Below, piece after piece: positions 14,190 to 25,203 of a DNA stretch of 55,542 nucleotides. This DNA comes from Verrucomicrobiota bacterium. Lineage in GTDB: Bacteria; Verrucomicrobiota; Verrucomicrobiia; Limisphaerales; UBA9464. The stretch covers positions 1 to 55,542 of the forward strand of contig JANYDN010000313.1 in NCBI GenBank assembly GCA_025363585.1, read 5' to 3'. Every line of letters begins with the position of its first letter. Positions within the stretch are counted from its first letter, which is position 1. The position numbers and the translations under genes are program-made. Under the pieces are notes generated by a model. The model did not search any database, had not been told where the DNA came from, and saw only the letters and a program-made list of their open reading frames with translations.

Positions 14190-14567
14190 ATGGTCCTCGG
14201 GGTGGGCATCGATGTCGTCGAGGTGACGCGGATCCGCGCGGCGTGGGAACGCCACGGGGCCCGGTTCATGGAACGGATCCTGGTTCCCGCGGAGCTCGCG
14301 TACTGTGCGTCGCAACCGGACCCCGCCCCCTCGTTGGCAGCGCGGTTCGCCGCGAAGGAAGCGGTGAGCAAGGCCTTTGGGACCGGCATTGGCGGGCAAT
14401 TGGGTTGGCACGACATCGAGATCCTCCGCCTCGAGTCCGGGCAACCCTCCGTGCGTTTGCTCGGGAAGGGCGCCGAACTGCTGTCGGCGCGCGGCGGCCG
14501 GACCGTCCACGTCAGCCTCACCCACGCGGTCGCCTACGCCGCGGCGGTGGCGGTCGTCGAGGGCTAG
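14190..14567 (+). CDS. acpS: Holo-[acyl-carrier-protein] synthase
   Basis: GVGIDVVEVTRIRAAWERHGARFMERI, SLAARFAAKEAVSKAFGTG, HVSLTHAVAYAAAVAVVE; follows pdxJ. Confidence 0.95.
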   Translation: MVLGVGIDVVEVTRIRAAWERHGARFMERILVPAELAYCASQPDPAPSLAARFAAKEAVSKAFGTGIGGQLGWHDIEILRLESGQPSVRLLGKGAELLSARGGRTVHVSLTHAVAYAAAVAVVEG

Positions 14568-15610
14568 GCTCCCGGATCCCGGCCGTTCGGCGTGGCAACC
14601 GACTCGTGCCGCTCGATGCGCTTCCGCAGTTTCTCGAGGGCAATGTTCTGCAGTTGGCGGATGCGTTCGCGGGTGACGCCGAGCTTGCGCCCGATCTCGT
14701 CCAGCGTTCGTTCGGGCCCGCCGTCCAAACCGAATCGCTCCCGAAGGATCGACAACTCGCGGGGGGCGAGCACGCCGAGGAAAGCCCGTACCATCTCGTG
14801 GGTCGTGCGCTCCTCGAGGGCGCGGAAGGGATCGGGTTGCGATTCGTCGGGCACGACCTCGCCCAACCGGCTGGAATCATCGTCTCCCAGGGGTTGGTCG
14901 AGCGACGTGGTCCGCATCGAGGCCCGCTGCCACATCCGTACCTTCCGCAGGGACACGCGGAGTTCCCCGGCGATTTCCTCGTCGGACGGTTCGCGCCCCA
15001 AGAGTTCGTGGAGCTCGACCGCGACGCGACGCATCCGGGAGAGCTTGTCGACCAGATGGACCGGCAGCCGGATCGTTTTCGACTGGTTGGCCAGGGAGCG
15101 TTTGACCGACTGCTTGATCCACCACGACGAGTAGGTGGAAAACTTGCCGCCCTTCGCGGGATCGAATCGCTCGACCCCTTTCATCAGGCCGATGTTGCCC
15201 TCGTTGATGAGGTCGAGAAGGGGAAGCCCGAGTCCCTCGTAGTCGCGGGCGATCTTCACGACGAGGCGAAGGTTGGCGCGGATCATGTGTTCGCGGGCGG
15301 CCATGTCGCCGCGTTTGATCCTGGCCGCCAGATCGATCTCTTCCTGGAGGGTGAGCAACGGAATCTCCGCGGCGTCGCGAAGGTACGCGGAGAGCGCGCT
15401 CCGGGGTTCCGCGGGAAGGTTGGCCGTTGGATCGGGGGCAATGTCCACGCGCGGTATCACGATCGAATTCGCCGACACCCGCGCGCCATGCGCACCGGGC
15501 TTCACCGGCTTCGCCCGGGTCATTGCCGATCCAACGGTGGACCGGCCACGGGACATGCGTGGTTTGGCGGGCGACCGGCGCTTCAAAATGGTGGCAGTAG
15601 GGCGAGGCAT
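14564..15610 (-). CDS. RNA polymerase sigma-70 family factor (RpoD/SigA-RpoS-like)
   Basis: Regions 2-4: EHMIRANLRLVVKIARDYEGLGLPLLDLINEGNIGLMKGVERFDP, KFSTYSSWWIKQSVKRSLANQSKTIRLPVHL, TLDEIGRKLGVTRERIRQLQNIALEKLRKR. Confidence 0.95.
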   Translation of the reverse strand: MPRPTATILKRRSPAKPRMSRGRSTVGSAMTRAKPVKPGAHGARVSANSIVIPRVDIAPDPTANLPAEPRSALSAYLRDAAEIPLLTLQEEIDLAARIKRGDMAAREHMIRANLRLVVKIARDYEGLGLPLLDLINEGNIGLMKGVERFDPAKGGKFSTYSSWWIKQSVKRSLANQSKTIRLPVHLVDKLSRMRRVAVELHELLGREPSDEEIAGELRVSLRKVRMWQRASMRTTSLDQPLGDDDSSRLGEVVPDESQPDPFRALEERTTHEMVRAFLGVLAPRELSILRERFGLDGGPERTLDEIGRKLGVTRERIRQLQNIALEKLRKRIERHESVATPNGRDPGA

Positions 15611-15671
15611 GCGGTGGATCCGGTGGTTCCGCCGTGGTCCGAAACCCGTTGCCCACGGCGGCGTGGGGATT

Positions 15672-15689
15672 TGTCTAACAAATGTATAA
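15672..15689. promoter_or_regulatory. Candidate operator: TGTCTAA and TGTATAA direct repeats, 11-bp spacing
   Basis: TGTCTAACAAATGTATAA read directly; starts at 15672 and 15683, within an AT-rich patch upstream of the sigma gene. Confidence 0.5.
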
Positions 15690-15804
15690 TCATTTGCCAA
15701 GTGTCGAATGAGCGACGGCGCGGCGGGGATGGATGCTTTTTCCATGAAATCATCGGAGTTTTAATCAGCGTGTCGAACGCCGGGAACGCAAAACCGGGAT
15801 TGCA

Positions 15805-15822
15805 TGTCTAAGTTGTGTCTAA
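15805..15822. promoter_or_regulatory. Candidate operator: two TGTCTAA direct repeats, 11-bp spacing
   Basis: TGTCTAAGTTGTGTCTAA read directly; starts at 15805 and 15816, just upstream of ATG 15834. Confidence 0.5.
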
Positions 15823-15833
15823 TATACAGGGGC

Positions 15834-16763
15834 ATGCCCGAGGTTCGCCACTCCATCAAGTTCGTGTCCCTGCGCACGGGCCTGAGCCCGCACGTGATAC
15901 GGGTTTGGGAGAAACGCTACGGCACGGTCACGCCGGGACGGTCCGACGGGAACCGGAGGCTCTATCGCGCGGCCGACATCGATCGGTTTCGTCTGCTCAA
16001 GCAGGCGACCGACGCGGGACACGGCATCGGCGGGATCGCGCGGTTGCCGACCGAAAAATTGCGACGCTTGGTATCGGAGCATCTTTTCGGCAACGCGAAG
16101 GTCGGTGTCCCCGCATCCACGCCGGACGCGGATTCCGTTTCGGCCGCCGCGCGCGGGGCGGTGGTGGCGATGGATGGCGAGGCATTGGAGGTCGTCCTGG
16201 AGAAGGGATCGGTGGCGCTCGGCCAGATGCGGCTGATTTCCCAGGTGATCGTCCCGCTGGTCGAACGCATCGGGGACGACTGGCGCGCCGGAACGTTGAA
16301 GGTGGCCCACGAACACATCGCGACCGCCGCGATCCGGTCCTTTCTGGGACTCTCGTCGCGCCAGATGATGTTGCACCCGTCTGCCCCGTGGCTGGTGGTC
16401 GGGACGCCGGCCGGACAAGTGCATGAAATCGGCGCGGTGCTGGCGGCCGCGGTGGCGCGCTCGTTCGGATGGCACGTGGCCTACGCGGGTCCGAGCTTGC
16501 CGGCGGAGGAGATCGTTTCGGCTGCGTTGGCCCGGCAAGCGGTGGCGGTCGCGCTGTCCATCGTCCACCCCTCCGACGATCCGGAATTGCCCGCGGAACT
16601 AAAGCGCCTCCGCCGACTGTTGCCCGCCGGCATTCATCTGGTCGTCGGAGGCCGCGCCAGCGCGGCTTACGCCAAGTCGCTGGCGGCGTGCGGCGCGTCG
16701 CTCGTCGAGGATCTGGAGCAGTGGATCGTCACGCTGGATCGGTTGCGGGACCGGCCGGTTTGA
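15834..16763 (+). CDS. MerR-family regulator with cobalamin-binding domain (CarH/LitR-like candidate photoreceptor)
   Basis: MerR HTH (SIKFVSLRTGLSPHVIRVWEKRYGTVTPGRSDGNRRLYRAADIDRFRLL), four-helix region with W-RAGTLKVAH-EH (W-x9-EH), B12 domain with GQVHEIGAVLAAAVARSFGWHVAYAGPSLP. ATG 15834 preferred over 15804. Confidence 0.88.
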   Translation: MPEVRHSIKFVSLRTGLSPHVIRVWEKRYGTVTPGRSDGNRRLYRAADIDRFRLLKQATDAGHGIGGIARLPTEKLRRLVSEHLFGNAKVGVPASTPDADSVSAAARGAVVAMDGEALEVVLEKGSVALGQMRLISQVIVPLVERIGDDWRAGTLKVAHEHIATAAIRSFLGLSSRQMMLHPSAPWLVVGTPAGQVHEIGAVLAAAVARSFGWHVAYAGPSLPAEEIVSAALARQAVAVALSIVHPSDDPELPAELKRLRRLLPAGIHLVVGGRASAAYAKSLAACGASLVEDLEQWIVTLDRLRDRPV

Positions 16764-19561: not shown

Positions 19562-20593
19562 TCAACCCGCCGCGCGCACCAACTTCTCGAGCGTGTCGAT
19601 CCACCGGGGATGGTCGTTGAGGCACGGCACCAACCGGAAATCCGTGCCGCCGGCCCCAAGGAAATCGTGGCGCGCCCGGTCGCCGATTTCCTCGATCGTC
19701 TCGAGGCAATCGGCCACGAACGCCGGCGACATCACCACCATTCGTTTTTTCCCCTCCTTCGGCAAACGCACGACCTCGTGGTCGGTGAACGGCCGGAGCC
19801 ACGGATCGCGTCCGAGCCGCGACTGGAACGACATCGAGTATTTCGACGCCGGGATGCCGAGTCGCCCGGCGATGCCCGCGGCGGTGACGAGGCATTGGTG
19901 GCGGTAACACGTCGCGTGCGACGGATGGCTGCCGGCGCAGCAATCGGCCGACGCCAGGCAATGCGCGTGCGTGGGGTCGCTCTTGCGGAGGTGTCGTTCG
20001 GGAAGCCCGTGGAAGGTCACGAGCAGATGGTCGAACTCCTCGGCGACGTGCGGCCGCGCGGTCTCGGCGAGGGCGTCGAGATAGGAGGGATCGGCGAAGC
20101 ACGGCGGGACGACCGACATCGGCACGACGGGTTCGAACGCCTTCAGATCCTCGCGCACTTTCTCGACGGCCGACTCGAAGCTCGACATCGCGTAGTGCGG
20201 GAAGAGCGGGACGAGGATCACGCGCGTGACGCCGCGTTTGCGCAGCGACTCCAGGGCCGATCGCGGCGTCGGATTCTGGTAGCGCATGCAGATCTCGACC
20301 GGTGCCTCGACGCGTTCCTGCAACAGGTCCCGCACGCGCCGGCCCATTGCCACCAAGGGCGAGCCTTCCTTCGTCCACACCGTCTGGTAGGCCTTCGCGG
20401 ACTGTTGTGGGCGCGTGGGCAGGATGAATCCGTGCACGATCACGAAACGGATCGGCAACGGCGCGTCGATGACCCGTCCGTCCATCAGGAATTCCCGGAG
20501 ATACTTCCGGACGTCGGGCACGCTCGGCGAATCGGGCGAGCCCAGGTTGATCAGGAGGATGCCGGTCGTGCCCGTGTTGGAAGGTTCCGTCAT
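19562..20593 (-). CDS. hemH: Ferrochelatase
   Basis: GILLINLGSPDSPSVPDVRKYLREFLMDGRVID, VPLFPHYAMSSFESAV, LLVTFHGLPERHLRKSDPT, SFQSRLGRDPWLRP. Confidence 0.96.
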   Translation of the reverse strand: MTEPSNTGTTGILLINLGSPDSPSVPDVRKYLREFLMDGRVIDAPLPIRFVIVHGFILPTRPQQSAKAYQTVWTKEGSPLVAMGRRVRDLLQERVEAPVEICMRYQNPTPRSALESLRKRGVTRVILVPLFPHYAMSSFESAVEKVREDLKAFEPVVPMSVVPPCFADPSYLDALAETARPHVAEEFDHLLVTFHGLPERHLRKSDPTHAHCLASADCCAGSHPSHATCYRHQCLVTAAGIAGRLGIPASKYSMSFQSRLGRDPWLRPFTDHEVVRLPKEGKKRMVVMSPAFVADCLETIEEIGDRARHDFLGAGGTDFRLVPCLNDHPRWIDTLEKLVRAAG

Positions 20594-20609
20594 GGCGTGG
20601 TTCGGGATG

Positions 20610-22052
20610 CTACGTTTTCGAAATCGGCGATCGTGGAATGGGTTCGTCGCGGATCATCGTTCCGGTGAATTTCCCCGCGACGCGCAACCCGGCAACGAGG
20701 CAATCGCCCATCGAGATGCCGTCGCGGAAATGGCCGGCGAAGCTAAGGCCCGGGGCCGTTTTCTCGAGTCGCGCCATGCGTTCCCGGAATTCCCCGTAAC
20801 CGAGGTTGTACTGCGGGATGCCCTTCGCATGGACGCAGTGGTGGACGAAGGTCGGCTCGCCGCGGGCGCCGATGAGGCGGGCGAGCGCGTCGCGCACCAG
20901 CGGCAATCGTTCGTCAGCGGACGCCAGCGCCAACGTGGGGTTCCGCGATCCGCCGACGTAGCACGTGAGCGTGACGTGTCCGTCGGGCGCGCGGTTTCGG
21001 AACAAGGACGAATTGAAAATCGCGCCGAGGATGGGGAACCGCTCCTTCCCGGGCACGAGGAAGCCGAAACCGTCGAGCGGGTGCGCGACGTCCCCGCGAC
21101 GGAACCCCAGGACCACCGACGCCACCGGGGCGTGGACGATCCCGGACATCCAGTCGAGCGACTCGCCCGGGACGCCGCGCAACTCGATCCGCGCGATGCG
21201 ATGTGCCGGCGAAGCGAGCACCACCGCGCGATGCCGTCGGACGCGGGTCTCGCCCCCGACGGTGCTCGTCACTTCCCAACCGCCCGCCACGCGCGTCACG
21301 GCCACGACCGGCGATTCGAACTGGAGGCGTTCGCCGACGGCGCGAACCAACGCGGAAACCAACGTGCCGAGTCCGTCCACGAACGAAAGCTTCGGGGCGT
21401 TGGCGCGCGCCGTCTCGCCGGATTTGCGGCGTTCGCGTCCTCCCAGGATTTGTCCCAGGAACAAAGAGCGATGGCGGCGTTCGACGGCCTCGAGACGCGG
21501 GAACGCCTGGGAGACCGAGAGGAGTTCCGGATCGCCCGCGTAGATGCCCGCGACCAATGGATTCACGGCGTAGTCGAGGAACTCGGCGCCCAGGCGTCTA
21601 CGAACGAATCCGGCCACGCTCTCTTCCGGGGCGTCCGCGCGGTGCCGCGGAAGGACGAGATCCCCGAGGACGCGGAGCTTCGCGGGAAACGAAAAGAGAT
21701 CGGTGCCAAGCCATCCGCCGAGCGTTCCCGGAATGGGTTTGGGAACGCCGTCGCGGACGATGTATCGCCGGTCCGCGTCTGGATTCGAACGAAGGCATTC
21801 GCCCTCGATGCCGAGTTTGCGGATCAGCGCGCGGATTTGCGGGGAGGTTTCGAGGAGCGTGTTGGGTCCGTCCTCGGCGAGATATCCGTCGCGCCGGACG
21901 GAGTGCACCGGTCCACCCGCGCGCGTGCCGGCCTCGTACACCGTGGCGTCGACGCTCACTTGCGAGAGGCGGAACGCGGCGGCGAGTCCCGTGATCCCGG
22001 CCCCGACGATGGCGACGGAACCGCCTCCACGGGCTTTGGAATCGATGATCAT
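20610..22052 (-). CDS. hemG: Protoporphyrinogen oxidase (FAD-dependent, HemY/HemG type)
   Basis: VAIVGAGITGLAAAFRLS, AGGPVHSVRRDGYLAEDGPNTLLE, NPLVAGIYAGDPELLSV, PQYNLGYGEFRERM. Confidence 0.93.
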   Translation of the reverse strand: MIIDSKARGGGSVAIVGAGITGLAAAFRLSQVSVDATVYEAGTRAGGPVHSVRRDGYLAEDGPNTLLETSPQIRALIRKLGIEGECLRSNPDADRRYIVRDGVPKPIPGTLGGWLGTDLFSFPAKLRVLGDLVLPRHRADAPEESVAGFVRRRLGAEFLDYAVNPLVAGIYAGDPELLSVSQAFPRLEAVERRHRSLFLGQILGGRERRKSGETARANAPKLSFVDGLGTLVSALVRAVGERLQFESPVVAVTRVAGGWEVTSTVGGETRVRRHRAVVLASPAHRIARIELRGVPGESLDWMSGIVHAPVASVVLGFRRGDVAHPLDGFGFLVPGKERFPILGAIFNSSLFRNRAPDGHVTLTCYVGGSRNPTLALASADERLPLVRDALARLIGARGEPTFVHHCVHAKGIPQYNLGYGEFRERMARLEKTAPGLSFAGHFRDGISMGDCLVAGLRVAGKFTGTMIRDEPIPRSPISKT

Positions 22053-22079
22053 GGCCGCGGGGAAAGTCGGTCGCGCGAA

Positions 22080-23450
22080 TCAAACCGCGCGGCTGAACAC
22101 GCGTTCGCCCGGATCCTTGCGGGCGAGCCGCGCGTCGAGCGCCATGCACACGTTGCGCAGGAACGCGCGTCCGAGCGGCGTCACGGTGCAACCGTCGGAT
22201 TGGAGCTCGACGATCCCGTCCCCTGCGAGCCCGGCGAGCCGCGAATGGGCGGACTCGAGGAACGGCGTCCGAAGTTCCGGGGTGTTCCAACGGGTCGCGT
22301 AGCGCGTCATGACGTTGAGGATGTGGCGTCGCAACACGAGGTCCTCCTCCGTGAGGACGTGGCCGCGGATGATGGGCAATTCGCCCGCGAGCACCCGCTG
22401 GCTATAGGGCTCCACGGCCTTTTCGTTTTGCGCGAACGACCGCCAGGAATCGCCGATCGACGAAACGCCGAGGCCGACCAAGGGGAACACCGAGCGCGGC
22501 GTGTAGCCCATGAAGTTGCGGTGCAGCGAGCCTTCCCGCGCCGCCTTCAGCAACGGGTCCGACTCCACCGCGAAGTGGTCCATGCCGACCTCATGGAACC
22601 CACAGTCGGCGAGAAGGTCGCGGCCGATGTCGTAGAGGTTGCGTTTGGCCTCGCCGACCGGGAGGTCCTCCTCGGTGAACGTGCGTTGCCAGGGCTTGAT
22701 CCACGGAACGTGCGCGTAGCCGTAGAACGCGATCCGGTCGGGCCCGAGCCGCGAGACCGCGGCCAGCGTCTCGCGGATGCTGGTCTCGGTCTGGAACGGC
22801 AGCCCGTAGATCAGGTCGAAGTTCACGCCGGTGAACCCGAGTTCGCGCGCCTGCTCCACGACCTTGCTCACGAGATCCTCGCTCTGCGTGCGGTTGACCG
22901 CCTTCTGCACGGCGGGATCGAAATCCTGGATGCCAAGGCTGAGCCGCGTGAACCCGTGCTGCCGGAGCACCTCGAGATGTTCGCGGCGCGTGACGCGCGG
23001 ATCGGCCTCGATCGACAGCTCCGCGTCCTTGGCAATGCGGACGCCGGAAAGAATGCCGCCGACGAGCCGGCCGAGATCGATGGGCTCAAGGTACGTGGGC
23101 GTGCCGCCGCCGAGATGGAGCTCGGCGAGGGGAAGGTCGTTGGCGGGACTGAGCCTGCGGCGGTACATCTCCCATTCGGCGAGGACCACGTCGACGTACG
23201 GCGGCGCGAGCGAGCGGTTGCGGGTGATGCGCGTGTTGCAGCCGCAGTAGGTGCAAAGCGCCTCGCAGAACGGGACGTGGACGTAGATCGCCGCGCCGGC
23301 GCCGCGATCGTTTCCGGGCGGCGAGGCCAGGCTCTCGAGCCACGCCTCGGGCGACGGAGTCGCGGACCAGTACGGCACCGTGGGATAGCTGGTGTAGCGC
23401 GGCCCCGGGACGTCGTGGCGCCGGAGCAATTGGCTGTATTGGGATGTCAT
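22080..23450 (-). CDS. hemN: Oxygen-independent coproporphyrinogen III oxidase
   Basis: YTSYPTVPYW, AIYVHVPFCEALCTYCGCNTRITR (radical SAM CxxxCxxC), LHLGGGTPTYLEP. Confidence 0.95.
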   Translation of the reverse strand: MTSQYSQLLRRHDVPGPRYTSYPTVPYWSATPSPEAWLESLASPPGNDRGAGAAIYVHVPFCEALCTYCGCNTRITRNRSLAPPYVDVVLAEWEMYRRRLSPANDLPLAELHLGGGTPTYLEPIDLGRLVGGILSGVRIAKDAELSIEADPRVTRREHLEVLRQHGFTRLSLGIQDFDPAVQKAVNRTQSEDLVSKVVEQARELGFTGVNFDLIYGLPFQTETSIRETLAAVSRLGPDRIAFYGYAHVPWIKPWQRTFTEEDLPVGEAKRNLYDIGRDLLADCGFHEVGMDHFAVESDPLLKAAREGSLHRNFMGYTPRSVFPLVGLGVSSIGDSWRSFAQNEKAVEPYSQRVLAGELPIIRGHVLTEEDLVLRRHILNVMTRYATRWNTPELRTPFLESAHSRLAGLAGDGIVELQSDGCTVTPLGRAFLRNVCMALDARLARKDPGERVFSRAV

Positions 23451-24493
23451 GGAACCTCCGCGAAAAAACGGTGCTGCAGTTCGAGGAAAAGCCGGACGTT
23501 GGATTCCGGCGTTGTTTGCAACACGCCGTGGCCGAGGCCGCAGATCCATCCGGCGCGTTGTCCGGGCGCGAGTCGCGACATTTCCGCGAACCACGCCAGG
23601 ATGCGCGGCTCCAGCTCGGCGGCCGGAAGCAGCATCCAGTTCGGGTCGAAATTTCCCTGCACGGCGCGGTTCCCGCCGAGCGCCTCGATCACCCGGGGCA
23701 GGGGATGGTGCCAATCCACGCCGACGCCCGCGGCGGGCAACGTGTCGATCAGGGCCCAGTGCCCGGGCCCGGTGCCTTTCGAGTAGTACGTGATGGGAAC
23801 GCCGGGCAGCCGCGCGTGAACTTCGGCGAAAAGCCGGCGAAGCCACGGCACCACCGTGCGTCCGAAAACCTCGGGCTCCAGATCGCCGGCGCAAGTGTCC
23901 ATCACGGCGACGGTGTCGGCGCCCGCCTCGTATTGCAGCACCATGTTCGCCGCCAGCAACGGCAGCAGGCGTTCGCAGAATCCCTCGAAGCGACCGTCGG
24001 AAAGCCCCGCGATCGCGGACTCCAGGCTCCCCTTGTGCGAGCCTTCCACCGCGTACGCGAAAAGCGTCCAGGGCCCGCCGACGAATCCGAGAAGACCCTT
24101 GTCCGCGGGCAACGCGGCGCGGATCAGCCGCATGGCGTCGGCCTGGAACTGGAGCTCGCCGATCCGTCCGGCGCCGCCCGTCAGGCGCGCGAGCCCCGCG
24201 GGTTCGCGGAGATGCCACGCGAGGACCGGGCCGGGCTCGTACGAAAGCCCCATGCCCATCGCCTCGAGGGGAAAGAGGAGGTCGGAAAAAAGTATGGCCG
24301 CGTCGAAACCGAAATCGCGGATCGGACCCATCGTCGTCTCGCACGCGAGTTCCGGGACCTTGCACAGCTCCATGAAGGTGTGCCGCCGCTTCAGCGCCTG
24401 GTAGTGCGCGTGGTAGCGTCCGGCCTGCCGCATGAACCACACCGGCGGGCGCCCCGTGTTTTTCCGGGCGAGGGCTTTTTGGAATCGGTTCAT
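23447..24493 (-). CDS. hemE: Uroporphyrinogen decarboxylase
   Basis: PPVWFMRQAGRYHAHYQALKRRHTFMELCKVPELACETTMGPIRDFGFDAAILFSDLLFPLEAMGM, GFVGGPWTLFAYAVEG; ATGA overlap with hemN. Confidence 0.96.
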   Translation of the reverse strand: MNRFQKALARKNTGRPPVWFMRQAGRYHAHYQALKRRHTFMELCKVPELACETTMGPIRDFGFDAAILFSDLLFPLEAMGMGLSYEPGPVLAWHLREPAGLARLTGGAGRIGELQFQADAMRLIRAALPADKGLLGFVGGPWTLFAYAVEGSHKGSLESAIAGLSDGRFEGFCERLLPLLAANMVLQYEAGADTVAVMDTCAGDLEPEVFGRTVVPWLRRLFAEVHARLPGVPITYYSKGTGPGHWALIDTLPAAGVGVDWHHPLPRVIEALGGNRAVQGNFDPNWMLLPAAELEPRILAWFAEMSRLAPGQRAGWICGLGHGVLQTTPESNVRLFLELQHRFFAEVP

Positions 24494-25203
24494 GTCTCGT
24501 CGACCGCCGCGCCGTCCAGTTGGTAGCCCACGCCCCGCACGCTGCGGATCACCGTGGGTTCGTCGGGTTTCACTTCCACGAGGCGCCGCAGCTTCAGGAT
24601 GAAATTGTCCACCGTGCGGGGCGTCGGGTACTCGTCGCGCGACCACACCTCGTCGAGGATGAAGTCGCGGCTCACGACCGCGCCGCGGCGCTCGACGAGC
24701 AACTTGAGCAACGCCGTCTCGCGCTGTCCCAGCCGCGTGGTCTCGCCGTCGACGGTCGCCTCGTGGTTCTGGAAACTGACTTGCGCGCGTCCCACGCGGA
24801 CGCGGTCGAGCCCGCTCTCGCAAAACCGCGCGCGACGGAGCCCGTTCTCGATGCGAAGCAGCAGTTCCTGGAAATGGAACGGCTTCACCACGTAGTCCTC
24901 GGCGCCGATCTCGAGTCCCTTGATCCGGTGCGCGGGATCGCCCATCGCCGTCAGGAAGATGATCGCGGTGCCGGGAAAACGCGCGCGGACGATCTCGGCC
25001 AGCGAGAGTCCGGATCCGTCGCCCAGCCCGATGTCGAGCAACGCGAGGTCGAAGCGTTGCCGCGAAAGCTCGTCGCGCGCCGCCGCGACCGAGCGCGACC
25101 AGACCACCTCGTGGCCGGCGCGGACGAGGCGTTCCACGAGCGTCTGGCCGATGTTCGGCTCGTCTTCCACCACCAGCAGCCGTCGTGCGGTCCGGTCAGC
25201 CAT
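24490..25203 (-). CDS. OmpR/PhoB-family response regulator
   Basis: LLVVEDEPNIGQTLVERL receiver, DLALLDIGLGDGSGL, winged helix VSRDFILDEVW...RTVDNFILKLRRLVE...IRSVRGVGYQL. Confidence 0.95.
   Translation of the reverse strand: MADRTARRLLVVEDEPNIGQTLVERLVRAGHEVVWSRSVAAARDELSRQRFDLALLDIGLGDGSGLSLAEIVRARFPGTAIIFLTAMGDPAHRIKGLEIGAEDYVVKPFHFQELLLRIENGLRRARFCESGLDRVRVGRAQVSFQNHEATVDGETTRLGQRETALLKLLVERRGAVVSRDFILDEVWSRDEYPTPRTVDNFILKLRRLVEVKPDEPTVIRSVRGVGYQLDGAAVDET

Follow-up and report, generated by a model that had tools for sequence, protein, structure and literature searches.

The window, a stretch of 55,542 nucleotides, belongs to a genome assembly of 5.13 Mb in 405 contigs that is about 90% complete. 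It carries a gene for a MerR-B12 protein of the CarH/LitR type (here carH), divergent from a gene for a group-2 sigma-70 factor. The genes, the operator-like half-sites between them and the domains of the regulator are as follows.

14564..15613, minus strand: group-2 sigma-70 factor gene, the proposed CarH target (Pfam PF00140, PF04542, PF04539, PF04545)
15672..15678, plus strand: DR1 of the sigma-side operator, TGTCTAA, which fits TGTnnA
15683..15689, plus strand: DR2 of the sigma-side operator, TGTATAA, overlapping a weak -10-like CATTTG (minus strand, 15684-15679)
15702..15708, plus strand: DR3 of the sigma-side operator, TGTCGAA, 30 bp from DR1
15805..15822, plus strand: carH-side operator of two direct repeats, TGTCTAA-N4-TGTCTAA
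15834..16763, plus strand: CarH/LitR-type MerR-B12 regulator gene, 309 aa
Residues 7-71 of the MerR-B12 protein: MerR helix-turn-helix (PF13411, 53.6 bits)
Residues 109-171: helical B12-binding_2 cap (PF02607), which holds W150-x9-E160H161
Residues 186-286: Rossmann B12-binding domain (PF02310), with the lower-ligand H197

The start of the sigma gene is best taken as ATG 15613 in preference to the longest-ORF start at 15745, because a relative's protein (G010) aligns from residue 1 and because a start at 15745 would put the conserved operator within the gene. Convergent genes come next on both 3′ sides (an aldolase gene after carH, acpS after the sigma gene), so that neither gene heads an operon here, as the wording of a preliminary description had implied. 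An Rfam scan round the locus returned no match. Haem synthesis genes (hemH, hemG, hemN and hemE, identified by eye) lie near the locus on the minus strand, at 19562-24823 of the window, a stretch that contains no repeat pair.

Domain architecture and signature residues

All three Pfam domains score above their cut-offs in the MerR-B12 protein, whose closest solved relatives are structures of TtCarH from Thermus thermophilus (3whp and 5c8d, E ~1e-23). An AlphaFold2 model built with 22 relatives in the alignment has a mean pLDDT of 90, and the top 30 Foldseek matches to it are TtCarH every time, dark- and light-state structures included. The whole-chain TM-score against TtCarH is only ~0.5, with a large rmsd, while that of the cobalamin domain is ~0.8 (by target length); we read the low whole-chain value as two domains that the model orients differently from TtCarH. 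The protein shares with TtCarH/LitR (5c8d, 5c8e, 3whp) the domain order, Wx9EH, the lower-ligand His and the fold, but is only ~31% identical to it and has Q for E175 and R for H132.

The preliminary description had pointed to an exact W-x9-EH spacing and to a GQVHEIG segment with a His at the ligand position, and both readings hold (W150-x9-E160-H161 and H197). The light signature of cobalamin photoreceptors, given in the available text of PMC11796333 as GxxW, EH, GxxH and GxxxP, is complete (G147xxW150, E160H161, G194xxH197, G219xxxP223) and near invariant among 81 homologues. Within it, W150, E160 and H161 of the adenosyl-capping motif Wx9EH are invariant in the 81; the lower axial H197, together with S242xV244 and G272G273 of the B12 motif, is conserved in every or nearly every homologue. 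The recognition helix RxWERRY is present as RVWEKRY, with R23, W25, E26, R28 and Y29 kept in 80-81 of 81.

Several positions depart from TtCarH. Val and Ser replace its R176 and D201, and its Glu175 is Gln195 in every homologue, so that the D/E of D/ExHx2G is absent. Because GQxHE was one of the scan patterns used to find the 80 named loci, the invariance of Gln195 among them, like that of the other residues of this stretch, is partly built in; a whole-protein search made without that pattern gave 22 relatives, however, and all 22 have the GQxHE stretch, Gln195 included. With Gln in place of D/E the protein is therefore filed in a divergent CarH-type subfamily, not as a canonical CarH; against the NCBIfam CarH equivalog NF052513 it scores 121.4 bits, where the cut-off is 400. 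The bis-His ligand H132, the upper ligand of light-state TtCarH, is present in many CarH/LitR proteins, not all; here it is Arg151, with Arg in 19 of the 22 relatives. CtMerR of Chloracidobacterium thermophilum (8jbs, 8jbt) shares the MerR-CBD make-up and the Arg at this position, and differs in its divergent DNA-binding domain; the available text on it (PMC11796333) describes a light-responsive protein that passes from tetramer to monomer in light, and an anaerobic light structure with no bis-His, and it names no operator or target.

The MerR-B12 protein is very probably a CarH-type regulator operating as in known systems, and from known CarH proteins we infer AdoCbl binding, light-driven disassembly and repression. 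An ATP:cobalamin adenosyltransferase gene is present in this genome. A sensor of AdoCbl itself, repressing when AdoCbl is plentiful and with light incidental in nature, would use the same pocket to report AdoCbl level, and nearly every relative does have the adenosyltransferase, whether or not it has carH. We nevertheless consider such a sensor unlikely: W-x9-EH and the remaining light signature residues are retained, no gene for transport or synthesis of B12 was noticed beside carH, and sister lineages have these operators in front of crtI (phytoene desaturase), the classic CarH target, an arrangement that suits light and not B12 supply. The replacement of the Glu of D/ExHxxG by Gln in all homologues would also fit a light- and B12-independent regulator that has kept fold and operator with AdoCbl unused, as CarA keeps the B12-binding motif yet needs no B12 (PMC9304148). 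However, CarA is without the Trp of Wx9EH and the residues that flank it (PMC9304148), whereas the Trp is invariant here, and a CarA-like regulator is accordingly quite improbable.

Operator half-sites here and in relatives

The CarH operator is built of 11-bp direct repeats, nnnnTnnACAn (PMC9304148). All five half-sites in the intergenic region fit TGTnnA, the complement of the TnnACA shared with TtCarH, which supplies the match to a consensus that the preliminary description did not give. Both repeat pairs it had located, TGTCTAACAAATGTATAA at 15672-15689 and TGTCTAAGTTGTGTCTAA at 15805-15822, are spaced 11 bp start to start, and the second does lie 12-29 bp upstream of ATG 15834; its operator account stands for these pairs, but the third half-site at 15702 had been missed. 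TtCarH has three tandem repeats, whereas the sigma-side operator here is a pair plus one repeat past a 19-bp gap (0/11/30).

The half-sites overlap or adjoin promoter-like elements. On the sigma side, the complement of DR3, TCGACA, is a -35-like hexamer, and the promoter reads TCGACA-N17-CATTTG, with a weak -10 whose register at DR2 was borrowed from relatives (CANNNT 17 nt from TTGACA); a consensus promoter scan did not find this -10 and gave one weak minus-strand match outside the relatives' register. On the carH side, the pair sits between a -35-like TTGCAT (15800-15805) and a -10-like TATACA (15823-15828), 17 nt apart, boxes that were read by eye and that the same scan did not find. Myxococcal CarH sites in several cases have the -35 box within a repeat, and there one or two perfect repeats plus degenerate ones suffice (PMC9304148).

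Searching with TGTMTAA-N4-TGTMTAA at up to two mismatches gave two matches in the window, both of them the known pairs, against 0.03 in shuffles, and the genome-wide search proposed at the outset found the exact pattern solely at these two places in 5.13 Mb. The three-repeat 0/11/30 pattern likewise occurs once in the genome. A relaxed pattern, TGTNNA-N5-TGTNNA, matched 10 times genome-wide against 13 in a backwards control, with two of the 10 in the carH-sigma intergenic region; the other eight, at chance level and without convincing promoter context, were rejected as operators. Since the relaxed pattern is not specific, the case is built on the strict form, its position and its conservation.

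The preliminary description would have been contradicted by repeats absent upstream of orthologues; they are conserved there. In the upstream regions of 26 relatives, the carH strand holds 31 pairs spaced 11 bp and the other strand none, against 0.22 (maximum 2) in dinucleotide shuffles. A non-redundant set of 78 regions (the named loci and the window), which overlaps the first in that several named contigs come from the same genomes, contains 102 pairs, with five on the other strand and 0.94 (maximum 4) in shuffles; half-site spacings peak further at 19, 22, 30 and 41 bp. Pairs lie either close to carH (22 loci) or close to the divergent gene (47 loci), and 20 loci have both. Only degenerate repeats were seen in two of 10 linked relatives (G002 and G011).

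In relatives the offset-30 repeat is often TTGACA on the divergent strand, followed 17 nt on by a CANNNT that overlaps the next repeat. Because this -35/-10 register overlaps the repeats, the 19-bp gap of the 0/11/30 layout is plausibly set by promoter spacing. A TTGACA -35 within a repeat (as in M. xanthus Pcrt) and operators over divergent promoters are shared with CarH of Myxococcales, whose targets differ in being carotenoid genes. Repeats lying over the -35 and -10 of the divergent promoter suit blocking, which makes it very improbable that a light-altered protein turns the sigma gene on positively in the manner of Streptomyces LitR, which is reported to promote litS transcription in light (PMC12705666).

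The sigma factor gene as the proposed target

The sigma gene product has regions 1.2, 2, 3 and 4 (Pfam) and is RpoS/RpoD-like; its best NCBIfam match is rpoS_proteo at 293 bits, under the cut-off of 379, and the genome encodes two other paralogues of this sigma (54% and 43% identity), as befits group 2. The sigmas of the window's lineage group in a single CarH-linked clade (SH-aLRT 100), which also takes in two relocated ones. In a quick carH tree with a very long outgroup branch, the window falls in a clade of 32 (SH-aLRT 99), in 30 of which the sigma gene adjoins carH.

The two exceptions (L051 and L052) are contigs of genomes G001 and G004, where carH has moved. The upstream regions of both relocated carH genes are without a repeat pair, and the sigma gene, on another contig, retains its operator, with at least four half-sites in G004 and one pair in G001. 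No repeat pair was found at eight sigma orthologues in carH-less genomes, at three unlinked sigmas in carH genomes or at seven sigma paralogues. This distribution, with the operator retained at the sigma gene after relocation of carH, is the best evidence that sigma is the regulated gene, and because sigma keeps it when carH lies elsewhere, sigma is the most strongly supported target. Both targets proposed in the preliminary description are thus supported, carH itself less strongly.

The 80 named relatives differ in what lies divergent from carH: 40 have a group-2 sigma, 13 a fasciclin-domain protein, six crtI and two an ECF sigma, and in 19 the gene is of another kind or not identified; the crtI, fasciclin and ECF genes were named by eye from sequence and used as search seeds, not Pfam-scanned. 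In sister lineages the divergent position is taken by crtI, by a fasciclin gene or by a sigma gene with crtI behind it, the last of these in several named relatives. This genome has no crtI, and of 23 other genomes of the family examined 20 lack it too. The fasciclin-domain-like proteins have a signal-like start (L066, L076, L077, L079, L089, L095, L097, L101, L103, L112, L118, L120 and L121); most of the 13 loci have the same 11-bp repeats, making this gene a candidate for light regulation. At L102 and L109 an ECF-type sigma lies divergent, ~80 bp upstream of carH, with a repeat pair, which recalls Streptomyces litR-litS. In a Gemmatimonadetes MAG (L119), the gene divergent from carH, again with repeats, is a sigma of far lower similarity (37%), and this pairing perhaps arose independently.

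A photolyase gene was found in most genomes examined, in 23 of 26 with carH against three of 13 without, a co-occurrence that is not counted as evidence because it follows family membership. As a direct operator target photolyase was rejected, the regions scanned at 25 loci containing no operator bar one match far from a start. Directly before the photolyase start, at a constant distance, TGnTAnnnT (often TGCTA) occurs at eight of 23 photolyase genes against 0.85 in shuffles (G000:C11:4469 (L155), L141, L143, L144, L145, L148, L150 and L154), all in carH-bearing genomes of this family; none was found at pdxJ, acpS or the aldolase gene. The motif was first seen by eye, and the count was made on those very sequences. 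It suggests an extended -10 with a short or absent leader, and as a possible promoter element of this sigma it is a lead only.

Proposed light response and its significance

Taken together, the locus probably encodes an AdoCbl-dependent, light-released repressor of the CarH type that acts on its own gene and on the divergent group-2 sigma gene. The domains, signature residues, operators, their conservation and the sigma link are read from sequence. In the dark, a CarH oligomer would occupy the 11-bp repeats, three of them spanning the -35 and -10 of the sigma promoter and two lying over carH's own promoter. Green or blue light would cleave the Co-C bond of AdoCbl, and the oligomer would disassemble and come off the DNA. 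With the repressor released, the group-2 sigma factor would be made and would then switch on a photoprotective programme in trans. What the sigma would transcribe is the least supported part of this explanation.

Carotenoid genes are the known targets of B12 photoreceptors, joined in Streptomyces by an ECF sigma. The new part is the connection to a group-2 sigma in a genome where no CrtI-type carotenoid gene was found. TtCarH differs in having carotenoid gene targets where sigma stands here. Streptomyces LitR/LitS shares a MerR-family B12 photoreceptor controlling a sigma that relays the light signal, but LitS belongs to the ECF sigmas and drives crt genes, whereas here a group-2 sigma-70 stands in a genome without crtI. 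An open-access literature search returned no paper joining CarH and Verrucomicrobia, the matches being unrelated by title.

The conserved target is thus a group-2 sigma in lineages mostly without a carotenoid desaturase. By record names, many of the carH-sigma lineages come from lakes and ponds. We tentatively suggest, as a possibility somewhat short of an even chance, that in this Verrucomicrobiota clade without a CrtI-type gene B12 light sensing has passed from control of a carotenoid operon to control of a stand-alone group-2 sigma, so that a light-gated change in RNA polymerase drives a photoprotection regulon of scattered genes, photolyase perhaps among them. The proposed repressor would predict that light sets off a transcription cascade in a phylum of which little has been cultured, and its operator code, TGTnnA repeats at 0/11/30/41, would allow its targets to be found.
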